Part shown: positions 4,331 to 12,775 of the stretch, in pieces
How positions within the stretch are numbered: position 1 is the stretch's first letter
Layout: every line of letters begins with the position of its first letter
Assembly: GCF_028416635.1 (NCBI RefSeq)
Contig: NZ_CP114013.1
Span: 4,898,001-4,962,000, forward strand
DNA: 64,000 nucleotides
Origin: Baekduia alba
GTDB lineage: Bacteria; Actinomycetota; Thermoleophilia; Solirubrobacterales; Solirubrobacteraceae
Direction of reading: 5' to 3'
Notes under the pieces: model-generated
What the model saw: the letters and a program-made list of their open reading frames with translations, nothing else
The model's database searches: none
What the model was told of the DNA's origin: nothing
Program-made: the position numbers and the translations under genes

Positions 4331-5827
4331 CTAGCCGTCGACGCCCAGGTTCTGAAGCGGGCCGAGCAGCCGGCGCGAGCGCTTGGACACGCCCGGGAGG
4401 GCGACCAGGCGGTGCGTCGGCCGCTCGCCGGCCTCGCGGCGCTCGAGCTGCTCCATCGCGATCGGGCGCCAGAGCTCGTCGACGACCTGCGCGGGCACGC
4501 GGTCGGCGACGTCGTCGAGCGGGCGCTCCAGGTGCTCGGCCCAGAGGCGCTCGCGCGTCGCCTTGGCGAGGACGTGGTCGTCGGTGACGATGTTCATCTC
4601 GGTGTCGTTGAGCAGCGAGTGGGCGTTGAGGTTGGCCGAGCCGATCGTCAGCCAGCGGTCGTCGACGATGCCGACCTTGGCGTGGACGTAGAGCGCGTCG
4701 TCGCGCCCGCCGGTGCGGGACCGCAGCGTCGTCGCGAGGAAGTGCGGGTTGCCGTGGCCGTCGGCCTCGGCGAGTACGCCGAGCTGGCCGCGGGTGTCGT
4801 CCTGGCCGTTGTTGGCCCGCGCGGGCAGTAGGACGACGAGGCGGAAGGCGTCGTGCGGCGGGTGGGCGAGCTTGTCGCACAGGACGTCCACGATCTCGGG
4901 CGACCACAGGAACTGGTTCTCGAGGTAGATGAAGTTCTCGGCGGCGCGCAGCGCGCGGACGTAGGACTCGAGGATGCGGAAGTCGCCGCGCGGGACCGAG
5001 TCGTACATGTCCTCTGACACGGTCCGGACGACCTGCACGGTGCTCGCGTGCTCCGCGGCGACCGGCGGCTGGACGACCGGCGGCGGCAGCTGCTCGCCGC
5101 TGACCTCGCGCCAGCGCATGATGAAGTGGTTGGCCACGTCGGCGACGGCCGGCCCTTCGATCCGCGTGCCGACGTCGTGCCAGCCGAGCTTGCGGCGCGC
5201 CGGGTGGTCGGAGCTGTCGTAGCGGTCGCCGGCCTGGTCGGTCATGTCGATGCCGTTGACGAACGCGACCTCGTCGTCGACGACGATCGTCTTCTCGTGG
5301 TGGCAGTGGACCGGGTGCTCGCGCGGGTCGCGGTAAGCCTGGATCTTCGTCGCGCGCGTGAGCTTCTCCACCTCGGCCCCGACCTCCTTGCGCGTCGGGT
5401 GGAAGAGCGGGACCGGCGAGCCGGCCCAGACCATGACGCGCACGTCGACGCGCTCGGCCAGCTCGGCGAGCAGCGGCCCGATCGCGGTCGGGCGCTCGCC
5501 GCGGACGAGCTCGAAGTGCGACGCGAGGTGCCAGCCGGTGATGTGGATGTGGGACCGGGCGGCGCGCAGCGCCTGGGCGATCGCGGGCAGCGCGGTGGCG
5601 CCGTCGACCAGGACCTCCACCTTGTTGCCGGGGCGCGGCGGCGGCTCGCCGGCGGCCCAGAGCGTGGCCGACGGGGTCGGCTCCAGCGCCTGCGGATGGC
5701 CGAGGCGCCGCAGGCGGCGACGATGGTGGCGCTTGACGGTCGCCTCGATGGCGTCGCCGATCAGCGCGTCGGCGCGGGCGACGGGACGGGGTGGCATGGG
5801 CTCTGTGTGCCCAGGCAAGGGCGTCAT
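4331..5827 (-). CDS. Phospholipase D-like protein with two HKD motifs
   Basis: The protein has two complete HKD catalytic motifs: HHEKTIVVDD in the first half and HAKVGIVDD followed by GSANLNAHS in the second, the arrangement of phospholipase D and cardiolipin synthase-like enzymes. It likely hydrolyses or transfers phosphatidyl groups. I chose the ATG at 5827 (498 residues) because its ATGA overlaps the stop of the upstream anti-sigma-like gene; an alternative ATG at 5800 is possible. No convincing signal peptide is present. It is the last gene of a translationally coupled ECF-sigma operon (7612 down to 4331), which suggests a role in envelope lipid remodelling as part of that regulon or its own expression unit. 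Confidence 0.9.
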   Translation of the reverse strand: MTPLPGHTEPMPPRPVARADALIGDAIEATVKRHHRRRLRRLGHPQALEPTPSATLWAAGEPPPRPGNKVEVLVDGATALPAIAQALRAARSHIHITGWHLASHFELVRGERPTAIGPLLAELAERVDVRVMVWAGSPVPLFHPTRKEVGAEVEKLTRATKIQAYRDPREHPVHCHHEKTIVVDDEVAFVNGIDMTDQAGDRYDSSDHPARRKLGWHDVGTRIEGPAVADVANHFIMRWREVSGEQLPPPVVQPPVAAEHASTVQVVRTVSEDMYDSVPRGDFRILESYVRALRAAENFIYLENQFLWSPEIVDVLCDKLAHPPHDAFRLVVLLPARANNGQDDTRGQLGVLAEADGHGNPHFLATTLRSRTGGRDDALYVHAKVGIVDDRWLTIGSANLNAHSLLNDTEMNIVTDDHVLAKATRERLWAEHLERPLDDVADRVPAQVVDELWRPIAMEQLERREAGERPTHRLVALPGVSKRSRRLLGPLQNLGVDG

Positions 5828-6519
5828 CTCACGGAGGCGGCGATCGCGCGTGCCCTCGCGAGGTCCCGTTCGCCCTCCAACCGCAGGACCGTGTCGCCCC
5901 GCTCCCAGATCAGCGCCGGCCCGGAGCGGACCGGCGGCCCCGTGACGTCCGACCACGCGTAGGCGTGCGGGTCGGCGAGGAACAGGGCCGCGCGCCCGCG
6001 GACCGTGGTGCGCCGGGCGCGGTCGTCCATGGCGATGATCTTGCGCAGGGTCGGCTGGTCGGGCAGGCGGCCGCGCGCCTGGGCGAGCAGGCGGCGCGGA
6101 TGGTCGTAGACCAACGTGATGATGTCGCCGCGGCGATAGACGGCGTCGGGCGCGCCGAGCGCGGCGGGGACCAGCGTGCCGGCCGCGAGCGCGGTCCGGG
6201 TGCCGAGCTGGGGGCTGCGCGCCGCGTGCGGCGGCGTGGCCCGGCGCTGCACCGTCACGTGCCGCAGGCCGAGGGCGTCGAGCACCGCGTGCCGGCTGGC
6301 CGGGATCGCCAGCGCGGCGGCCGGCAGGGCGAGCAGGAGCAGGGCAAGGACGACGACAACGCGGCGCGGCGCGCGACGGCGGCGCGCGGGCCGGCGCCGA
6401 GGGCTCGGGACGGCAGCGCGGGTCGGCAGGCGCTCGCGGACGGCGGCGGCGAGCTCGGGCGTCGGCGGCCAGTCGAGCTCGTGGCCGAGCGTGCGGAGCT
6501 CGGTGTCGAGGTCGGTCAT
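5824..6519 (-). CDS. Single-pass membrane protein, probable anti-sigma factor
   Basis: The 231-residue product has a short cytoplasmic N-terminus (about 60 residues, Arg-rich near the membrane), one transmembrane helix, and an extracytoplasmic C-terminal domain of about 145 residues that includes the segments TLVYDHPRRLLAQARGRLP and VRGRAALFLAD. No zinc-binding HxxxCxxC motif is present, so it is not a classical ZAS anti-sigma. It is called anti-sigma by position: it overlaps the ECF sigma gene by ATGA and is followed by the phospholipase D with a second overlap. The extracellular part could sense an envelope signal. Direct evidence of sigma binding is absent. Confidence 0.7.
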   Translation of the reverse strand: MTDLDTELRTLGHELDWPPTPELAAAVRERLPTRAAVPSPRRRPARRRRAPRRVVVVLALLLLALPAAALAIPASRHAVLDALGLRHVTVQRRATPPHAARSPQLGTRTALAAGTLVPAALGAPDAVYRRGDIITLVYDHPRRLLAQARGRLPDQPTLRKIIAMDDRARRTTVRGRAALFLADPHAYAWSDVTGPPVRSGPALIWERGDTVLRLEGERDLARARAIAASVR

Positions 6520-7073
6520 CGGTCCTCCTCCCCCAGCTCGGCGCGCAGGCGGCCCAGCGCGCGGCTGGCGCGGGACTTCACGGTGCCGGGGCGGCAGCGC
6601 AGGATCGCGGCGCACTCGGCCTCGGAGAGGTCGAGCAGGTAGCGCAGCGTCAGCACCTGGCGGTGCTCGTCGCCCAGCCGGCCCAGCGCGGCGAGCAGCG
6701 TGCCGCGGCGAGCGCCCGCCAGCACCGCGACGTCGGCGCCCGGCGCCGCGTGCTCGTCCAGCGCCGCGCCGGCCCGGAGCGCCAGCGCGGTGCGGCGGCC
6801 GGTCGAGCGCGCGCGGTTGCGCGCCTCGTTGGCGACGATCGCCAACAGCCAGGGGCGGAAGGGCGCGCCGTCGCGGAACCGGTCGAGGGCGAGGTAGGCC
6901 TTCAACAACGCCTCCTGGGCCGCGTCCTGGGCGTCGGTCGCGTCGCCGCAGACGACGCACGCCGTCCGGAACGCGATCTCCTGGTGGCGCTCCACGAGCA
7001 CGCCGAAGGCCGCCCGGTCGCCGGCACGGGCGCGGGACACGAGCTCGGCCTCGGGCGTGCTCGCCGGCGTCAC
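6516..7073 (-). CDS. ECF-family RNA polymerase sigma factor
   Basis: This 185-residue sigma-70 protein has region 2 (CGDATDAQDAAQEALLKAYL and FRPWLLAIVANEARNRAR) and region 4 (DEHRQVLTLRYLLDLSEAEC plus GTVKSRASRALGRLRAEL), separated by a short Gly/Ala-rich linker, and lacks regions 1 and 3. The GTG start at 7073 overlaps the stop of the upstream gene (GTGA), and its own stop overlaps the anti-sigma-like gene (ATGA). It therefore sits in a tightly coupled unit likely to be autoregulated. Target promoters cannot be deduced with confidence from this window. Confidence 0.93.
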   Translation of the reverse strand: MTPASTPEAELVSRARAGDRAAFGVLVERHQEIAFRTACVVCGDATDAQDAAQEALLKAYLALDRFRDGAPFRPWLLAIVANEARNRARSTGRRTALALRAGAALDEHAAPGADVAVLAGARRGTLLAALGRLGDEHRQVLTLRYLLDLSEAECAAILRCRPGTVKSRASRALGRLRAELGEEDR

Positions 7074-7612
7074 CCGGTCGCGGGCCTCCCGCGCCGGACC
7101 AGCGCGACGCCGCCCGCGGCGAGCAGCAGCGCGGCCGCGGCGCCGGCCAGCCAGGTGCCGGTCGGGATGCCGCCGCCGTCGTCGCGACCGCCATCGCGCG
7201 CCGCGGTCGCCCGGACCGGCGCCGCCGCCGGCACGCCCCACGGCCGCACGCCGCGCGCGAGCCGCGCGAGGTGGCCGCGCACCTCCGGCGTCGTCCGGTG
7301 GAACGTCGCCTCCGAGGAGCTCTGGATGCCGAGCGTCGGGTAGTAGGTCACGGTCGTGTGACCGTACGTCTTCCCGGCGTCGCCTATCCCCTCCTCCAGC
7401 CGCAGGTGCGGCGCCGGTCCCGGGTCGGCGACGGTCGCGTCGTAGGACATCAGGTCCCGCATCAGGCGCGAGTCGGCCCGGAGCGCGGCCGACCGGTCGA
7501 CGCAGCCGTCGGCGCCGCAGATCACGAGGCTGGTCAGGCCCTTGGCCGGCGCGGCGGCCGGGACGGCGGCGGCCACGACGACGAGGGCGAGCAGGACGGC
7601 CAGGCGATGCAT
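7070..7612 (-). CDS. Exported membrane-anchored protein of unknown function, first gene of sigma operon
   Basis: The 180-residue product has an N-terminal signal peptide, an extracytoplasmic domain with two Cys residues close together (VICGADGCVDRS, probably a disulfide), and a C-terminal membrane helix followed by an RRGR stop-transfer. It therefore looks like a type I membrane protein. An AGGAGA Shine-Dalgarno precedes the ATG. It is the first gene of the coupled operon with the ECF sigma factor, anti-sigma-like protein and phospholipase D, and could be a sensor or a target of that system. I do not recognise the family. Confidence 0.7.
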   Translation of the reverse strand: MHRLAVLLALVVVAAAVPAAAPAKGLTSLVICGADGCVDRSAALRADSRLMRDLMSYDATVADPGPAPHLRLEEGIGDAGKTYGHTTVTYYPTLGIQSSSEATFHRTTPEVRGHLARLARGVRPWGVPAAAPVRATAARDGGRDDGGGIPTGTWLAGAAAALLLAAGGVALVRRGRPATG

Positions 7613-7660
7613 GTCTCTCCTACACCGCGGCCGCCCGACCGGTTCCCTCCCGGCGCGCGG

Positions 7661-8620
7661 CTACCACCAGGCGGACAGCAGCAGCGCGATCCCGACGACC
7701 GCGGCGAGCGCGACGACGACCGCGTTGACGACGAGCAGGCGGCTCGAGCGCGGCGCGCGGGCGGGCACCGACGGATCCGCGACGTGCGCCGCGAGCGCGC
7801 TCGAGATGTAGGTGTTGAGCGGGACGCCCTCGCGCTCGGCGGCCTCGCCCAGCTCGGTGTGCAGCGTGCGCGGCAGGCGCAGCAGGAGCCGGCCGCTGCG
7901 CGGGTCGGCCGACGCTCCGGGCCGCTGCGCGATCGGCGGGTCGGCGGACGCGACCGCCTCCGGCGCGACCGCTCCGCGCAGCCGCTCCAGCGCCGCCCTC
8001 AGCAGCCGCGACACGTGCGCCTGGGAGAGCCCGAGCTCGCGCGCGATCTCCGACTGGCTGCGGTCCTCGCGGTAGCGCAGCTCGAGCAGCCGGCGCTCGC
8101 GGTCGTCCAGCGCGCCCCAGCCGGCCTCGAGCAGGACGCGCGCCTCGGCCGCCTCGGTGTCCGCGCGCGTGGCCGGCAGCGCGGCGTCGTCGTCGTCGGG
8201 CAGCGCGACCGCCGGCTCGACGGCGGCGAGCGCGTCGGCCGCGCGCTCCTCGTCGACGTCGGCGGCCGCGGCCAGCTCGGCCGTCGTCGGCGGGCGCCGC
8301 AGCCGCGCGGTCAGCTCGCCGCGCAGGGCGCGCAGCCGGCCGCCGAGCTCGCGATCGCCGCGGGCGACGTGCGGGCCGCAGCCGCCGTCGCGCAGGTGGT
8401 GCTTGATCTCGCCCTCGATCGACGGCCGGGCCAGCGCCGCGAGGTCGCGGTCGCGCGTCGGGTCGAAGCGGTCGACCGCCTTGATGAGGCCGACCGTCCC
8501 GGCCTGGACGAGATCCTCGAGCGCCTCGCCGCGGCCGGCGTAGCGGCGCGCGATCGACCGCACGAGCGGCAGGTGCGCCTCGATCGCGTCGGTGCGGGCG
8601 TCGAGTCCCGGGGACCCCAT
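7661..8620 (-). CDS. Sigma-70 factor fused to ribbon-helix-helix domain and C-terminal membrane helix
   Basis: Residues 10-75 match sigma region 2 of the SigB/F/G type (YAGRGEALEDLVQAGTVGL and IEGEIKHHLRDGG), residues 85-140 region 3, and residues 165-215 region 4 (LDDRERRLLELRYREDRSQS and LGLSQAHVSRLLRAALERL). After a linker, residues 243-280 look like an Arc/HicB-type ribbon-helix-helix domain (LLLRLPRTLHTELGEAA, then GVPLNTYISSALAAHV). Residues 294-316 form one hydrophobic helix with almost nothing beyond it, so the protein appears tail-anchored in the membrane. Typical SigB-type factors end after region 4 near 260 residues. It is divergent from the exported-protein cluster at 8777. What it transcribes, and whether it is released from the membrane, is unknown. 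Confidence 0.85.
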   Translation of the reverse strand: MGSPGLDARTDAIEAHLPLVRSIARRYAGRGEALEDLVQAGTVGLIKAVDRFDPTRDRDLAALARPSIEGEIKHHLRDGGCGPHVARGDRELGGRLRALRGELTARLRRPPTTAELAAAADVDEERAADALAAVEPAVALPDDDDAALPATRADTEAAEARVLLEAGWGALDDRERRLLELRYREDRSQSEIARELGLSQAHVSRLLRAALERLRGAVAPEAVASADPPIAQRPGASADPRSGRLLLRLPRTLHTELGEAAEREGVPLNTYISSALAAHVADPSVPARAPRSSRLLVVNAVVVALAAVVGIALLLSAWW

Positions 8621-8776
8621 GGGACGACGCTACCGGCGCGCCGGCGCGCGCGGCAGTAGTGCTGGCACGACGTTCGATCAGGCTGCTTTGCGGTGCGTCG
8701 CGGATGCATGGGTGATACCGCCCATGCACGGCATGCGCATGGATGGGATCGGGCCTCCGGTGGCAGGTCACGCCCG

Positions 8777-9826
8777 ATGGAGACGGACCTCGTCACGCGT
8801 GTGCACCGCAGCCTGCTGCTGGTCTTCTGCCTCCTCTTGCTCGCGGTTGTTCCCGCGGCACGGGCAGACGACACGGCGACGCCGGCCGTCGAGATCCCGG
8901 CCTCCGCCGTCAGCGCCGCCAACACCGGGGGCGCGGCCGCCGGCGCGGTCGCCTCAGGCGCGGGCAGCGCCGCGGCCGCGCAGCAGGCGCCGACGAACAT
9001 CAACGTCACGATCGTCAACAACAGCCCGGGCGCGGTCGTCAACACGACCCAGGTCAACGCCGCGACGGCGGCCGTCGCGGCCCCCGCGCCGCCGGCTCCC
9101 CCGCACGTGGATCCGCCCGCGCCGCCGGCGCCGCCGCACGTCGATCCGCCCACGCCGCCGACGCCCCCCTCGCCGCCCACGGTCCACGTCCCCGACGTGC
9201 CGGCGGCCGCTGCCGGCGCCGGCGTCGCCCAGCCCACCACGAGCTCCTCGAACGGCGCGGCCGCGTCCGCGCCCAGCCCCGTCGTCGCCCCCGCGGCGGC
9301 TGCCGCGCCGGCCACGGCGACGGCTCCTCAGCCGGCCGCCGCTCCCGGCGGCGGCGGGGCGCGCAGGGTCGGCGCCGACACCGGCGGCCTGGCCGCCGGC
9401 AGCAAGGCGCACGCGCCCCGCGGCGACGCCGTCCAGCGCAACTACGTCGGCGCGCGCGCCGCGGGCGCGACGGCCACGGCGGCGGCCGCCCCGTGGCCGA
9501 TCGCCGCGGCGACCCCGGCGCCGGCCGCCGTGGTCCCGGCCACCACCGGCCGCGACGCCGCGGCCCACGGCGACGGCCGCGCGGCCGCCGCGCGCCATCG
9601 CACCCACGCCGCCCGCGCGCCGTACCGCGCGCCGGCCGTCCCGATCGAGCCGCCCGTCGCCGCGTCGGCCGGCGGCCTCGGCGGTCCCGGCGGCGGCACC
9701 ATGCTTGCCCTCACGCTCGTCGCAGCGCTCGTGCTCACCGGTTCGGCGGGACCGTACGAGCTCGTCGCGCTGCTCCGACGACGTGCCCCCCTCAGCGCCG
9801 GAGGGCGCCTCGAACGTCCGGGGTAG
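8777..9826 (+). CDS. Exported Ala/Pro-rich protein with C-terminal membrane helix
   Basis: I chose the ATG at 8777 because it gives a clean signal peptide (charged start, SLLLVFCLLLLAVVPAARA). The mature part begins with a small Asn-rich block (NINVTIVNNSPGAVVN) and continues as about 220 residues of Ala/Pro low-complexity sequence, including repeated PPAPPHVDPP units, before a hydrophobic helix near the C-terminus and an RRR stop-transfer. It looks like a wall-spanning stalk anchored in the membrane. The NNSPG block resembles the LSPG core of the repeat protein encoded next. No enzymatic domain is visible. Upstream frames remain open to 8693, but they would add an unlikely N-terminus. Confidence 0.7.
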   Translation: METDLVTRVHRSLLLVFCLLLLAVVPAARADDTATPAVEIPASAVSAANTGGAAAGAVASGAGSAAAAQQAPTNINVTIVNNSPGAVVNTTQVNAATAAVAAPAPPAPPHVDPPAPPAPPHVDPPTPPTPPSPPTVHVPDVPAAAAGAGVAQPTTSSSNGAAASAPSPVVAPAAAAAPATATAPQPAAAPGGGGARRVGADTGGLAAGSKAHAPRGDAVQRNYVGARAAGATATAAAAPWPIAAATPAPAAVVPATTGRDAAAHGDGRAAAARHRTHAARAPYRAPAVPIEPPVAASAGGLGGPGGGTMLALTLVAALVLTGSAGPYELVALLRRRAPLSAGGRLERPG

Positions 9827-9886: not shown

Positions 9887-11011
9887 ATGCGCAAGACCAT
9901 GATGGTGTGGTCGGCCTGTGCCGCAGCGGTGCTGCCGGCCTGTGCCGCCGGCACCGCGATGGCCGACGGCGTGCCCGTCCAGGGCATCGGCCAGCAGGCC
10001 ACCAGCAACCAGGCCGCGAACTCCGAGGCGAGCTCGAACCAGAGCAACCCCTCCAACAACGCGATCCACGTCGCGATCCTGAGCCCGGGCGCGAGCAGCG
10101 GCCCGGTCTCCCAGCAGAACAACTCGGGGGCGACCTCGAGCGCCGGCAACACCAACGCCACCACGCAGAGCTCGGCGCAGAGCGCCGGGGGCGGCGGCGG
10201 GGGCGGCGGCGGTGCGGTGCAGGGCGTCGGCCAGGATGCGCAGAGCAACCAGGCCGCCAACTCGTCCGCCGAGTCGAACCAGAGCAACGCCAACAACAAC
10301 GCGGTGTCGCTGGCGATCCTGAGCCCGGGCGCGAGCAGCGGCCCGGTCTCCCAGCAGAACAACTCGGGGGCGACCTCGAGCGCCGGCAACACCAACGCCA
10401 CCACGCAGAACGCCGAGCAGTCCGCCGGCGGCAGCGCGATGGAGAAGAAGGCGCCTGAGCCGCGCACCGAGTGTGGCTCATCGTGCTCGCCGCCTCCGCC
10501 TCCGTGCGGCGGCTGCGGCCACCCGAGCACGCCGACGGTCCAAGGGATCGGCCAGCAGGCCATCAACAACCAGTCCGCCAGCTCGAGCGCCGAGTCCAAC
10601 CAGTACAACCCGTCCAACACGGCGGTGTCGCTGGCGATCCTGAGCCCGGGCGCGAGCTCCGGCCCGGTGTCCCAGCAGAACAACTCGTACGCCGACTCGA
10701 AGGCCGGCAACACCAACGCCACGACCCAGAACGCCGCGCAGAGCGCCGGCGGCTGGGGCGGCCCGGTGCAGGCCATCGGTCAGTTCGCGTACAACAACCA
10801 GGCGGCCAACTCGTCCGCGAAGTCGAACCAGTGGTGCCCGTCGAACCTGGCGCTGTCGCTGCCGATCCTGAGCCCGGGCGCGAGCTCCGGCCCGGTGTCG
10901 CAGGCCAACAACTCGGGCGCGAGCTCGATGGCCGGCAACGCCAACTACACCACGCAGAACGCTGACCAGGCGTTCGGCGGGTGGCCCTGGCCGCCCGTGG
11001 TGGTGATCTAG
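9887..11011 (+). CDS. Secreted Q/N-rich protein of four 70-residue repeats, amyloid-like
   Basis: After a signal peptide of about 27 residues the protein consists of four repeats of exactly 70 residues (31-100, 111-180, 218-287, 294-363), each running from VQ-G-GQ-A--NQ-A-S, through SNQ-N--N, A--LSPGASSGPVSQ, to AGN-N-TTQ. Spacers are a poly-Gly run (101-109), a Cys/Pro-rich insert with CGGCG (195-211) and a short WGG. Regularly spaced Gln and Asn between small residues recall curlin-type functional amyloids, but it is not a recognisable CsgA homologue. Repeats 1 and 2 share a 97-bp identical DNA block. Neighbours are also exported. A surface fibre or coat role is an inference. Confidence 0.85.
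   Translation: MRKTMMVWSACAAAVLPACAAGTAMADGVPVQGIGQQATSNQAANSEASSNQSNPSNNAIHVAILSPGASSGPVSQQNNSGATSSAGNTNATTQSSAQSAGGGGGGGGGAVQGVGQDAQSNQAANSSAESNQSNANNNAVSLAILSPGASSGPVSQQNNSGATSSAGNTNATTQNAEQSAGGSAMEKKAPEPRTECGSSCSPPPPPCGGCGHPSTPTVQGIGQQAINNQSASSSAESNQYNPSNTAVSLAILSPGASSGPVSQQNNSYADSKAGNTNATTQNAAQSAGGWGGPVQAIGQFAYNNQAANSSAKSNQWCPSNLALSLPILSPGASSGPVSQANNSGASSMAGNANYTTQNADQAFGGWPWPPVVVI
9977..10975 (+). repeat. Four tandem coding repeats of 210 bp with spacers
   Basis: Repeat units lie at 9977-10186, 10217-10426, 10538-10747 and 10766-10975, each 210 bp (70 codons). Units 1 and 2 contain an exact 97-bp match (10073-10169 and 10313-10409), pointing to recent duplication or gene conversion. 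Units 3 and 4 are more diverged but hold the same frame and length. Confidence 0.9.
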
Positions 11012-11126: not shown

Positions 11127-11663
11127 GTGAGGATTGGCCGTCGATGTGCAGCGTTCATCACCGGCCTGGCGATCGGATCGCCGGGGGCGGTGGCCGTCGC
11201 GCAGACCCCGGCGCCGGATCCCAGCCCGACCAGCGCGCGGCAGCCGGACGCGGCGCCGGTGCGGGCGCAGCCGGCACCGCGCGTGGCCGCCCAGCCCAAG
11301 GCCGGCGTCACGGCGGCCGGGCCGGCGGTGACGACGACGCAGGCGGCCCCGCGGGCGGCGACGCCCACGGCGACCCCGCGGCGCACGCCGGCGACGCACC
11401 GGGCGCAACGCGCGCGCCGCGCGCAGGCGGCACGTCACGCGGCCGCGAGCCGCGCCCGCGCCCGCCACGACGCGACGGCCGCGCTGACGGCCGCCGGCCG
11501 GACGATCGCCCCGGTGGCCTTCGTCGCCCCCGCGCCGGCGCGGATCGAGGACGACAACAACGAAGACCGCTCCCTCCAGGCGATCGCCGGCGCCGCCCTC
11601 CTGGCCCTCGCGGCCGCCGGCGCGCTGACCCTGACCCGCGTGAGGCGGAGCGCGACCGCATGA
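11127..11663 (+). CDS. Exported Ala/Pro/Thr-rich protein with C-terminal anchor
   Basis: The 178-residue product starts at a GTG preceded by GAAGGA. It has a signal peptide (to about AVAVAQ, residue 26), a long basic Ala/Pro/Thr/Arg-rich region without recognisable fold, and a C-terminal hydrophobic helix (LQAIAGAALLALAAAGALTL) followed by RVRR. The architecture is similar to the 8777 gene and suggests a membrane-anchored, wall-penetrating protein. Its stop overlaps the start of the next gene (ATGA), so the two are translationally coupled. I do not recognise a family. Confidence 0.65.
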   Translation: MRIGRRCAAFITGLAIGSPGAVAVAQTPAPDPSPTSARQPDAAPVRAQPAPRVAAQPKAGVTAAGPAVTTTQAAPRAATPTATPRRTPATHRAQRARRAQAARHAAASRARARHDATAALTAAGRTIAPVAFVAPAPARIEDDNNEDRSLQAIAGAALLALAAAGALTLTRVRRSATA

Positions 11664-12775
11664 CGCGCCGCGCCCTCGTCCTCGCCGCCTGCCTCTTCGC
11701 GCTCGCCCCCGCCACGGCGCGCGCCGCCGTCGACCTCCCGCCGCCGGCGATCACCGGCACCGCGGGCGACAACGGGTGGTACGTCAGCCCGGTCACGCTG
11801 AAGTGGAGCCCGACCGGCGAGACCAGCACGTCGGGCTGCGACACGCAGACCCTCACCGCGGACACCGTCGGCGCCACGGTGACGTGCACCGCCTCCAACG
11901 GGCCCGGCGACTCGGTCACGCGCACCGTCACGATCCACCTCGACCAGACGCCGCCCACCGCCGTCGCCGCGTCGCCGGCCCGCCCGCCCGACGCCCCGCC
12001 GTTCTACACCGCGCCCGTGGCGATCGCCTGGTCGGGCTCCGACCCCACCTCCGGCATCGCCGCGTGCACCGCCACCACCTACGCCGGCCCGGACGCGCCC
12101 ACCGCCACGCCGACCGGCTCCTGCCGCGACAACGCCGGCAACGTGTCGTCGCCCGTCGCGCTCACGTTCGCCTACGACGCGACCGCGCCACCGCTCACCG
12201 GGCTGACCGCGACGGCCAACCCCGACCGCACGATCGCGCTCGGCTGGACCACGTCGCCCGACGCCCAGACCGCGACCGTCGTCCGCAACCCGGGCAACGC
12301 CACCATCATGAACGCCGGCCCGGCCACGACCCGCGCCACGACCGACGGGCCGCTCGCGCCCGCCACGGCCTACACCTACACGGTGACCGTCAAGGACGCC
12401 GCGGGCAACGCGACGTCGGCCTCGGCGTCGGCCACCACGCCCGCCGTCCCCGCGGAGCTGGCGAGCACGTCCAAGGCCAAGGCGAAGGCGAAGGCCAAGG
12501 ACCGTACGCCCACCCTGCGCTGGAAGGCGCAACGACGGGCCAAGTACTACAACTTCCAGCTCTTCCGCAACGGCCGTAAGATCCTCAGCGCCTGGCCCAC
12601 GAAGAACCACTACACCCTGCACGCCCAATGGCGCTTCCGCGGCCGCACCCAGCACCTCGCGACCGGCAAGTACCGCTGGTACGTCTGGCCCGGCTACGGC
12701 CGCCGCGCCGCGCACCGCTACGGCCGCCTGCACGCCAAGGGCGCCGTGACGATCCCGAAGCCGACGCCGCGCTGA
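11660..12775 (+). CDS. Secreted Ig-like/fibronectin III-type surface protein
   Basis: The 371-residue product has a signal peptide (ending near ARAAV, residue 23), then two Ig-like beta-sandwich modules with paired Cys residues and the DQTPP and DNAGN turns typical of bacterial surface Ig repeats. A fibronectin III-like module follows (TGLTATANPDRTIALGW, ending in TYTVTVKDAAGN). A Lys-Ala run (KAKAKAKAK) precedes a basic C-terminal domain rich in Tyr, Trp and Arg (KYRWYVWPGYG). The whole protein is likely extracellular, and the basic tail could bind wall polymers. It is coupled to the preceding anchor protein by an ATGA overlap, suggesting a joint surface role. Confidence 0.75.
   Translation: MTRRALVLAACLFALAPATARAAVDLPPPAITGTAGDNGWYVSPVTLKWSPTGETSTSGCDTQTLTADTVGATVTCTASNGPGDSVTRTVTIHLDQTPPTAVAASPARPPDAPPFYTAPVAIAWSGSDPTSGIAACTATTYAGPDAPTATPTGSCRDNAGNVSSPVALTFAYDATAPPLTGLTATANPDRTIALGWTTSPDAQTATVVRNPGNATIMNAGPATTRATTDGPLAPATAYTYTVTVKDAAGNATSASASATTPAVPAELASTSKAKAKAKAKDRTPTLRWKAQRRAKYYNFQLFRNGRKILSAWPTKNHYTLHAQWRFRGRTQHLATGKYRWYVWPGYGRRAAHRYGRLHAKGAVTIPKPTPR

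Follow-up and report, generated by a model that had tools for sequence, protein, structure and literature searches.

A SigB/F-type sigma factor fused to a HicB-type ribbon-helix-helix and a predicted membrane helix in Baekduia alba: a candidate membrane-bound regulator encoded separately in relatives

Domain organization of the fusion protein

The window analyzed here, a stretch of 64,000 nucleotides of the Baekduia alba genome (contig NZ_CP114013.1, positions 4,898,001 to 4,962,000), encodes a protein in which a sigma factor is followed by a HicB-type ribbon-helix-helix (RHH) segment and a predicted C-terminal membrane helix (Table 1). An original prediction, made from the sequence alone, had proposed this open reading frame on the minus strand, complete sigma regions 2-4, an RHH segment at residues 243-280 and one hydrophobic helix at the very end. 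These elements were all recovered, and the RHH could be refined to the HicB type. The three sigma regions and the HicB RHH exceed their Pfam gathering scores, with PF05534 scoring 33.3 bits where 21 are required; the HicB core domain was not found by Pfam in the window protein. The closest NCBIfam model of the sigma part is TIGR02980 (SigB/SigF/SigG), but the score of 180 bits falls below the curated cut-off of 234, and the sigma is therefore called SigB/F-type by resemblance and not as a formal member.

AlphaFold2 modeling on a 35-row alignment returned confident sigma domains, two confident RHH helices (pLDDT, the predicted local distance difference test, about 90) and a final helix with pLDDT of about 95, at which the protein stops. 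The 50 Foldseek matches listed for this model were sigma factors, the second being the S. aureus sigB structure 8x6g. In the monomer model the strand ahead of the RHH helices is missing, which fits a strand that forms solely by pairing in a dimer. Over 19 residues, the terminal helix of fused members whose tail is complete has a hydropathy of 2.7-3.5; basic residues precede it in most fused members, and it contains an asparagine (Asn299) invariant across 25 aligned sequences. The protein is thus predicted to sit in the membrane with its C-terminus outward.

Table 1. Features of the sigma-HicB locus, in window coordinates
Feature	Coordinates	Strand	Basis or remark
Sigma-HicB(RHH)-membrane-helix fusion protein, 319 aa	7661..8620	-	open reading frame; ortholog 76% identical, alignment
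Sigma-70 region 2, residues 13-78	8387..8584	-	Pfam PF04542 Sigma70_r2, E 9e-19
Sigma-70 region 3, residues 91-140	8201..8350	-	Pfam PF04539, E 3e-6
Sigma-70 region 4, residues 170-215	7976..8113	-	Pfam PF04545, E 1e-13
HicB-type RHH, Pfam residues 240-276, helices 251-264 and 268-281	7778..7903	-	PF05534, AlphaFold2
C-terminal membrane helix (predicted), residues 293-318	7667..7744	-	hydropathy, alignment, AlphaFold2
Divergent intergenic region	8621..8776	.	72% identical between the window genome and G006
Palindrome CATGCGCATG, candidate operator	8732-8741		conserved between the window genome and G006
Secreted protein, one repeat-like unit, C-terminal membrane helix, tail ending RLERPG; divergent gene	8777..9826	+	
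Secreted repetitive Gln/Asn-rich protein, cluster c1	9887..11011	+	neighbor in 11/20 loci
Secreted Ig/FN3-like protein, conserved C-terminal domain, cluster c2	11660..12775	+	near RHH gene, 10 loci

Conservation of the fused form

The same architecture, searched for in relatives, proved to be shared by nine genomes of four genera within one family, comprising Conexibacter and its relatives (genomes are denoted by G numbers, with G000 that of the window, and loci by L numbers). Within the genus, G006 encodes the 76%-identical protein with unchanged domain order, while two single-contig assemblies (G001 and G005) gave no comparable RHH-tail match. In a Conexibacter metagenome-assembled genome (MAG; G003, L123), a copy at a contig end retains the RHH and tail beyond a long proline-rich linker, and the order recurs in G081, G020, G101, G102, G108 and G109, the last seen as two overlapping contig pieces; G003 and G109 are thus known only as pieces at contig ends. 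In three of the fused proteins, the sigma and the RHH are separated by a HicB core domain: for G102 (HicB_lk_antitox) and G081 (UPF0150) the score passes the model cut-off, and for G020 it stays under it. Among the matches listed from 232 genomes of the order, the long ones running past the sigma in one open frame were confined to this family. Of the HicB matches in 396 genomes of the phylum, with loci fetched for 15, none reached a membrane tail except that of the window.

The RHH and tail are kept in all members aligned. Because the whole order and the invariant asparagine are conserved in more distant genomes as well as in the 76%-identical relative, we regard the tail as neither a chance hydrophobic stretch nor a product of sequencing. 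An assembly artefact was likewise set aside, since nine genomes from four genera, a single-contig assembly among them, all show the fused gene.

Separate sigma and tail-anchored HicB genes in relatives

Thermoleophilia at a greater distance encode the parts in two adjacent genes, a sigma factor and then a tail-anchored HicB. In two MAGs a sigma gene precedes a distinct gene that encodes RHH and tail (L079) or HicB core, RHH and tail (L117), and further pairs, all in one family (f7), emerged when 399 genomes of the class were searched. Some of these split genes overlap; such overlap is common for sigma/anti-sigma gene pairs. The model of a split HicB-tail protein contains the HicB core, the RHH helices and the terminal helix; its best PDB matches in Foldseek were HicB antitoxins and TTHA0281, with weak E-values of 0.01-0.05. 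A profile search of PDB sequences likewise gave weak matches only, among which the RHH proteins AmrZ and EndoAI ranked highest.

The association with sigma factors follows the tail. Among 41 non-fused loci, a sigma gene was scored within the fetched locus for 13 of 18 membrane-tailed RHH/HicB matches versus 1 of 23 untailed ones (Fisher p = 5.7e-6, a nominal value that overstates independence, since the loci are related). Of the five tailed loci without a sigma, two (L180 and L184) border a contig end, the latter corresponding to the C-terminal part of the fusion in G109; the other three (L186, L188 and L204) have none within 1.5 kb. In a tree of 69 sigma domains (8 fused rows, 12 split rows and 49 others), the fused and split sigmas formed one clade apart from the 49 other sigma factors, with a Shimodaira-Hasegawa-like approximate likelihood ratio (SH-aLRT) support of 98.4. 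With a sigma and a predicted membrane segment in one chain, and separate genes in relatives, the window protein has the form of a sigma/anti-sigma membrane fusion; it joins a sigma gene to a tail-anchored HicB gene, two genes that stand apart in relatives.

Promoter motif and neighboring genes

In the 420 bases upstream of the sigma, the motif GGGTA[CGT]T, first noticed in the very sequences in which it was later counted, reads away from the sigma and toward the divergent secreted surface-protein operon in 11 of 13 split loci and toward the sigma in none of the 13; 500 shuffles of these regions gave a mean of 0.28 and a maximum of 2. We take it to resemble the -10 element of actinobacterial SigB/SigF promoters. 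A gapped-dyad motif search in the intergenic regions of 15 loci returned GC-rich noise only, and a sigma-70 consensus scan of window positions 7000-9000 found nothing.

The type of gene lying divergent from the fusion recurs at other loci. Signal peptides and membrane helices of the neighbor proteins were judged by eye and hydropathy. In seven fetched loci (L209, L211, L213, L214, L215, L217 and L226), the product of the gene divergent from the sigma ends in RPG or PPG after its membrane helix; it is a single-pass membrane protein whose cytoplasmic tail often displays the longer RLERPG form among the RPG endings. This protein is a possible partner of the tail-anchored regulator.

Secreted Gln/Asn-rich repeat proteins (VQAIGQ..., VRVLSPG...G.V.QSN...) are encoded by the cluster c1 gene of the window and at L226:2619-5390 and L217:4633-6396, and are possibly fiber-forming surface proteins. 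A Pfam scan of the repetitive proteins gave no curlin family and no family above cut-off, and we therefore do not call them curli-like. Tail-anchored HicB genes with no nearby sigma gene were seen at L223:7976-8563, L223:10710-11273 and L224:8031-8642, those of L223 adjoining cluster c2 secreted proteins. Downstream of the fusion gene, the window carries a second sigma-like gene, by eye of the extracytoplasmic function (ECF) type, and then an open reading frame with a membrane helix (5824-7241). A phospholipase D-like gene lies a few genes from the fusion gene in the window (4331-5956) and immediately downstream of it in G006 and G003 (L009; L010).

Proposed mechanism and alternatives

The fused and split loci beside secreted-protein genes point to a previously undescribed membrane-bound gene switch in a soil bacterium. 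We give about an even chance to the reading that the divergent surface-protein operon is controlled by a membrane-bound regulator that serves one SigB/F-type sigma and is here fused to it. The SigB/F-type sigma would be joined to its own dedicated regulator, a HicB-type RHH with a C-terminal tail anchor; the sigma and the RHH would remain cytoplasmic, with the last helix alone entering the membrane. The RHH, probably as a dimer, would keep the sigma at the inner membrane face, and the sigma would drive transcription of the divergent secreted surface-protein operon. The HicB/tail module would most likely be anti-sigma-like, keeping the sigma in check at the membrane for as long as no signal is received; the signal might come by way of the divergent single-pass membrane protein or of intramembrane cleavage. 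The computed support for this reading comprises the domain order, its conservation, the fused/split relation, the single sigma clade, the adjacency to sigma genes and the -10 motif of the split loci.

Several observations weigh against this reading. In the fused loci, that of the window included, no GGGTANT was seen at the corresponding position, and promoter recognition there may therefore differ. Tail-anchored HicB genes without a sigma neighbor exist (L186, L188 and L204). The AlphaFold2 model of the fusion protein has a predicted template modeling (pTM) score of 0.40, so that the mutual arrangement of its parts is not determined by the model and contacts between sigma and RHH cannot be read from it. 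The chain ends at the membrane helix, without a sensor domain outside the membrane. Finally, the R-x-L-x-R residues of the RHH strand are conserved in the alignment, and a pure anti-sigma factor would not need them; RHH folds are usually DNA-binding.

This strand, together with the conserved RHH helices, argues for a different model, which we hold to be less likely than not, in which the protein is a permanently tethered activator: an RHH dimer would occupy an operator in the divergent intergenic region, the fused sigma would recruit RNA polymerase to the promoter there, and the genes for secreted proteins would be transcribed at the membrane. The lack of an extracytoplasmic domain for signal sensing and the fusion itself, which holds sigma and RHH together, agree with such a model, as does the palindrome CATGCGCATG shared by the intergenic regions of two genomes; these two genomes are related, however, the strand motif is general in the HicB family, and in the split form sigma and RHH need not stay together. 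The anti-sigma-like role is favored by the operon order and the ECF precedents, and operator binding by the conserved RHH strand, and both may hold. Rather doubtfully, tail-anchored HicB/RHH proteins could form a new class of sigma regulator that tethers a SigB/F-type sigma and also binds the target promoter, the surface-protein genes being transcribed at the membrane.

A proteolytic switch, which could be combined with the anti-sigma-like reading, is possible but on balance improbable: the protein would be a membrane-held precursor whose sigma is freed by an intramembrane protease, as in IutY and the pro-sigma factors. Besides the IutY precedent (PMC5411451), the invariant asparagine in the membrane helix and the peptidase M50 (site-2 protease) homologs of the window genome and G006 are consistent with it, but M50 proteases occur in 14 of 14 control genomes, so that their presence says little, and there is no site-1 domain outside the membrane. 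We consider it very unlikely that the terminal helix is not membrane-inserted and the protein soluble, given the hydropathy and basic flank of the helix, its invariant position and asparagine, and its high pLDDT. Equally remote, despite the HicB fold and family, is the notion that the HicB part plays no role in sigma control and is left over from a HicAB toxin-antitoxin pair, as both RHH and tail are preserved throughout the members. HicA (PF07927) gave no match in the window genome or in G006, G003, G081, G020 and G102, some of which are incomplete; the matches in G101, G108, G109, G274, G302 and G394 are either on a different contig from the sigma-RHH locus or distant from it, and none was beside a fusion among the matches listed. 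A HicAB toxin-antitoxin reading was dropped on this ground.

The favored reading, that of a dedicated membrane-bound regulator, would add to the known controls of sigma factors a type built from an antitoxin fold, with relatives displaying both fused and split forms. As the likely target operon is adjacent and its promoter recognizable in split loci, the mechanism is directly testable with reporters.

Comparison with known systems

ECF48, ECF52, ECF53 and ECF36 are sigma factors fused to membrane anti-sigma parts (PMC8999054), and IutY of Pseudomonas putida is a sigma-membrane anti-sigma fusion (PMC5411451). In ECF48, ECF52 (SCO4117) and ECF53, as here, the sigma is C-terminally fused to a membrane portion thought to be its anti-sigma factor; these are ECF sigmas with zinc-finger anti-sigma domains, SCO4117 having an external region (PMC8999054), whereas the sigma of the window protein is SigB/F-type and includes region 3, its added part is a HicB RHH, and it lacks an external domain. 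IutY, too, combines sigma and one membrane segment in a single polypeptide; for IutY, a periplasmic anti-sigma domain and activation through cleavage by Prc/RseP are described in addition (PMC5411451). Compared with SigB/SigF/SigG (TIGR02980), the closest sigma model, the RHH and membrane tail are extra. HicB antitoxins (PDB 6g26, 6g1n, 4p7d) and TTHA0281 (2dsy) share the HicB core and/or RHH family, although with weak Foldseek E-values; unlike the antitoxins, the protein described here has a membrane tail, stands beside or fused to a sigma, and has no HicA partner listed at the locus.

The original prediction stands in part: its domain reading of sigma, RHH and C-terminal anchor is supported, and the two mechanisms that it put forward, proteolytic release and operator specificity conferred by the RHH, are candidates. 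Its view of a tethered sigma as unusual has to be set against the precedents of ECF48/52/53 and IutY. Its statement that no sigma of this order is known agrees with the open-licence PMC literature, as far as titles and abstracts, which mostly represented it, reveal.
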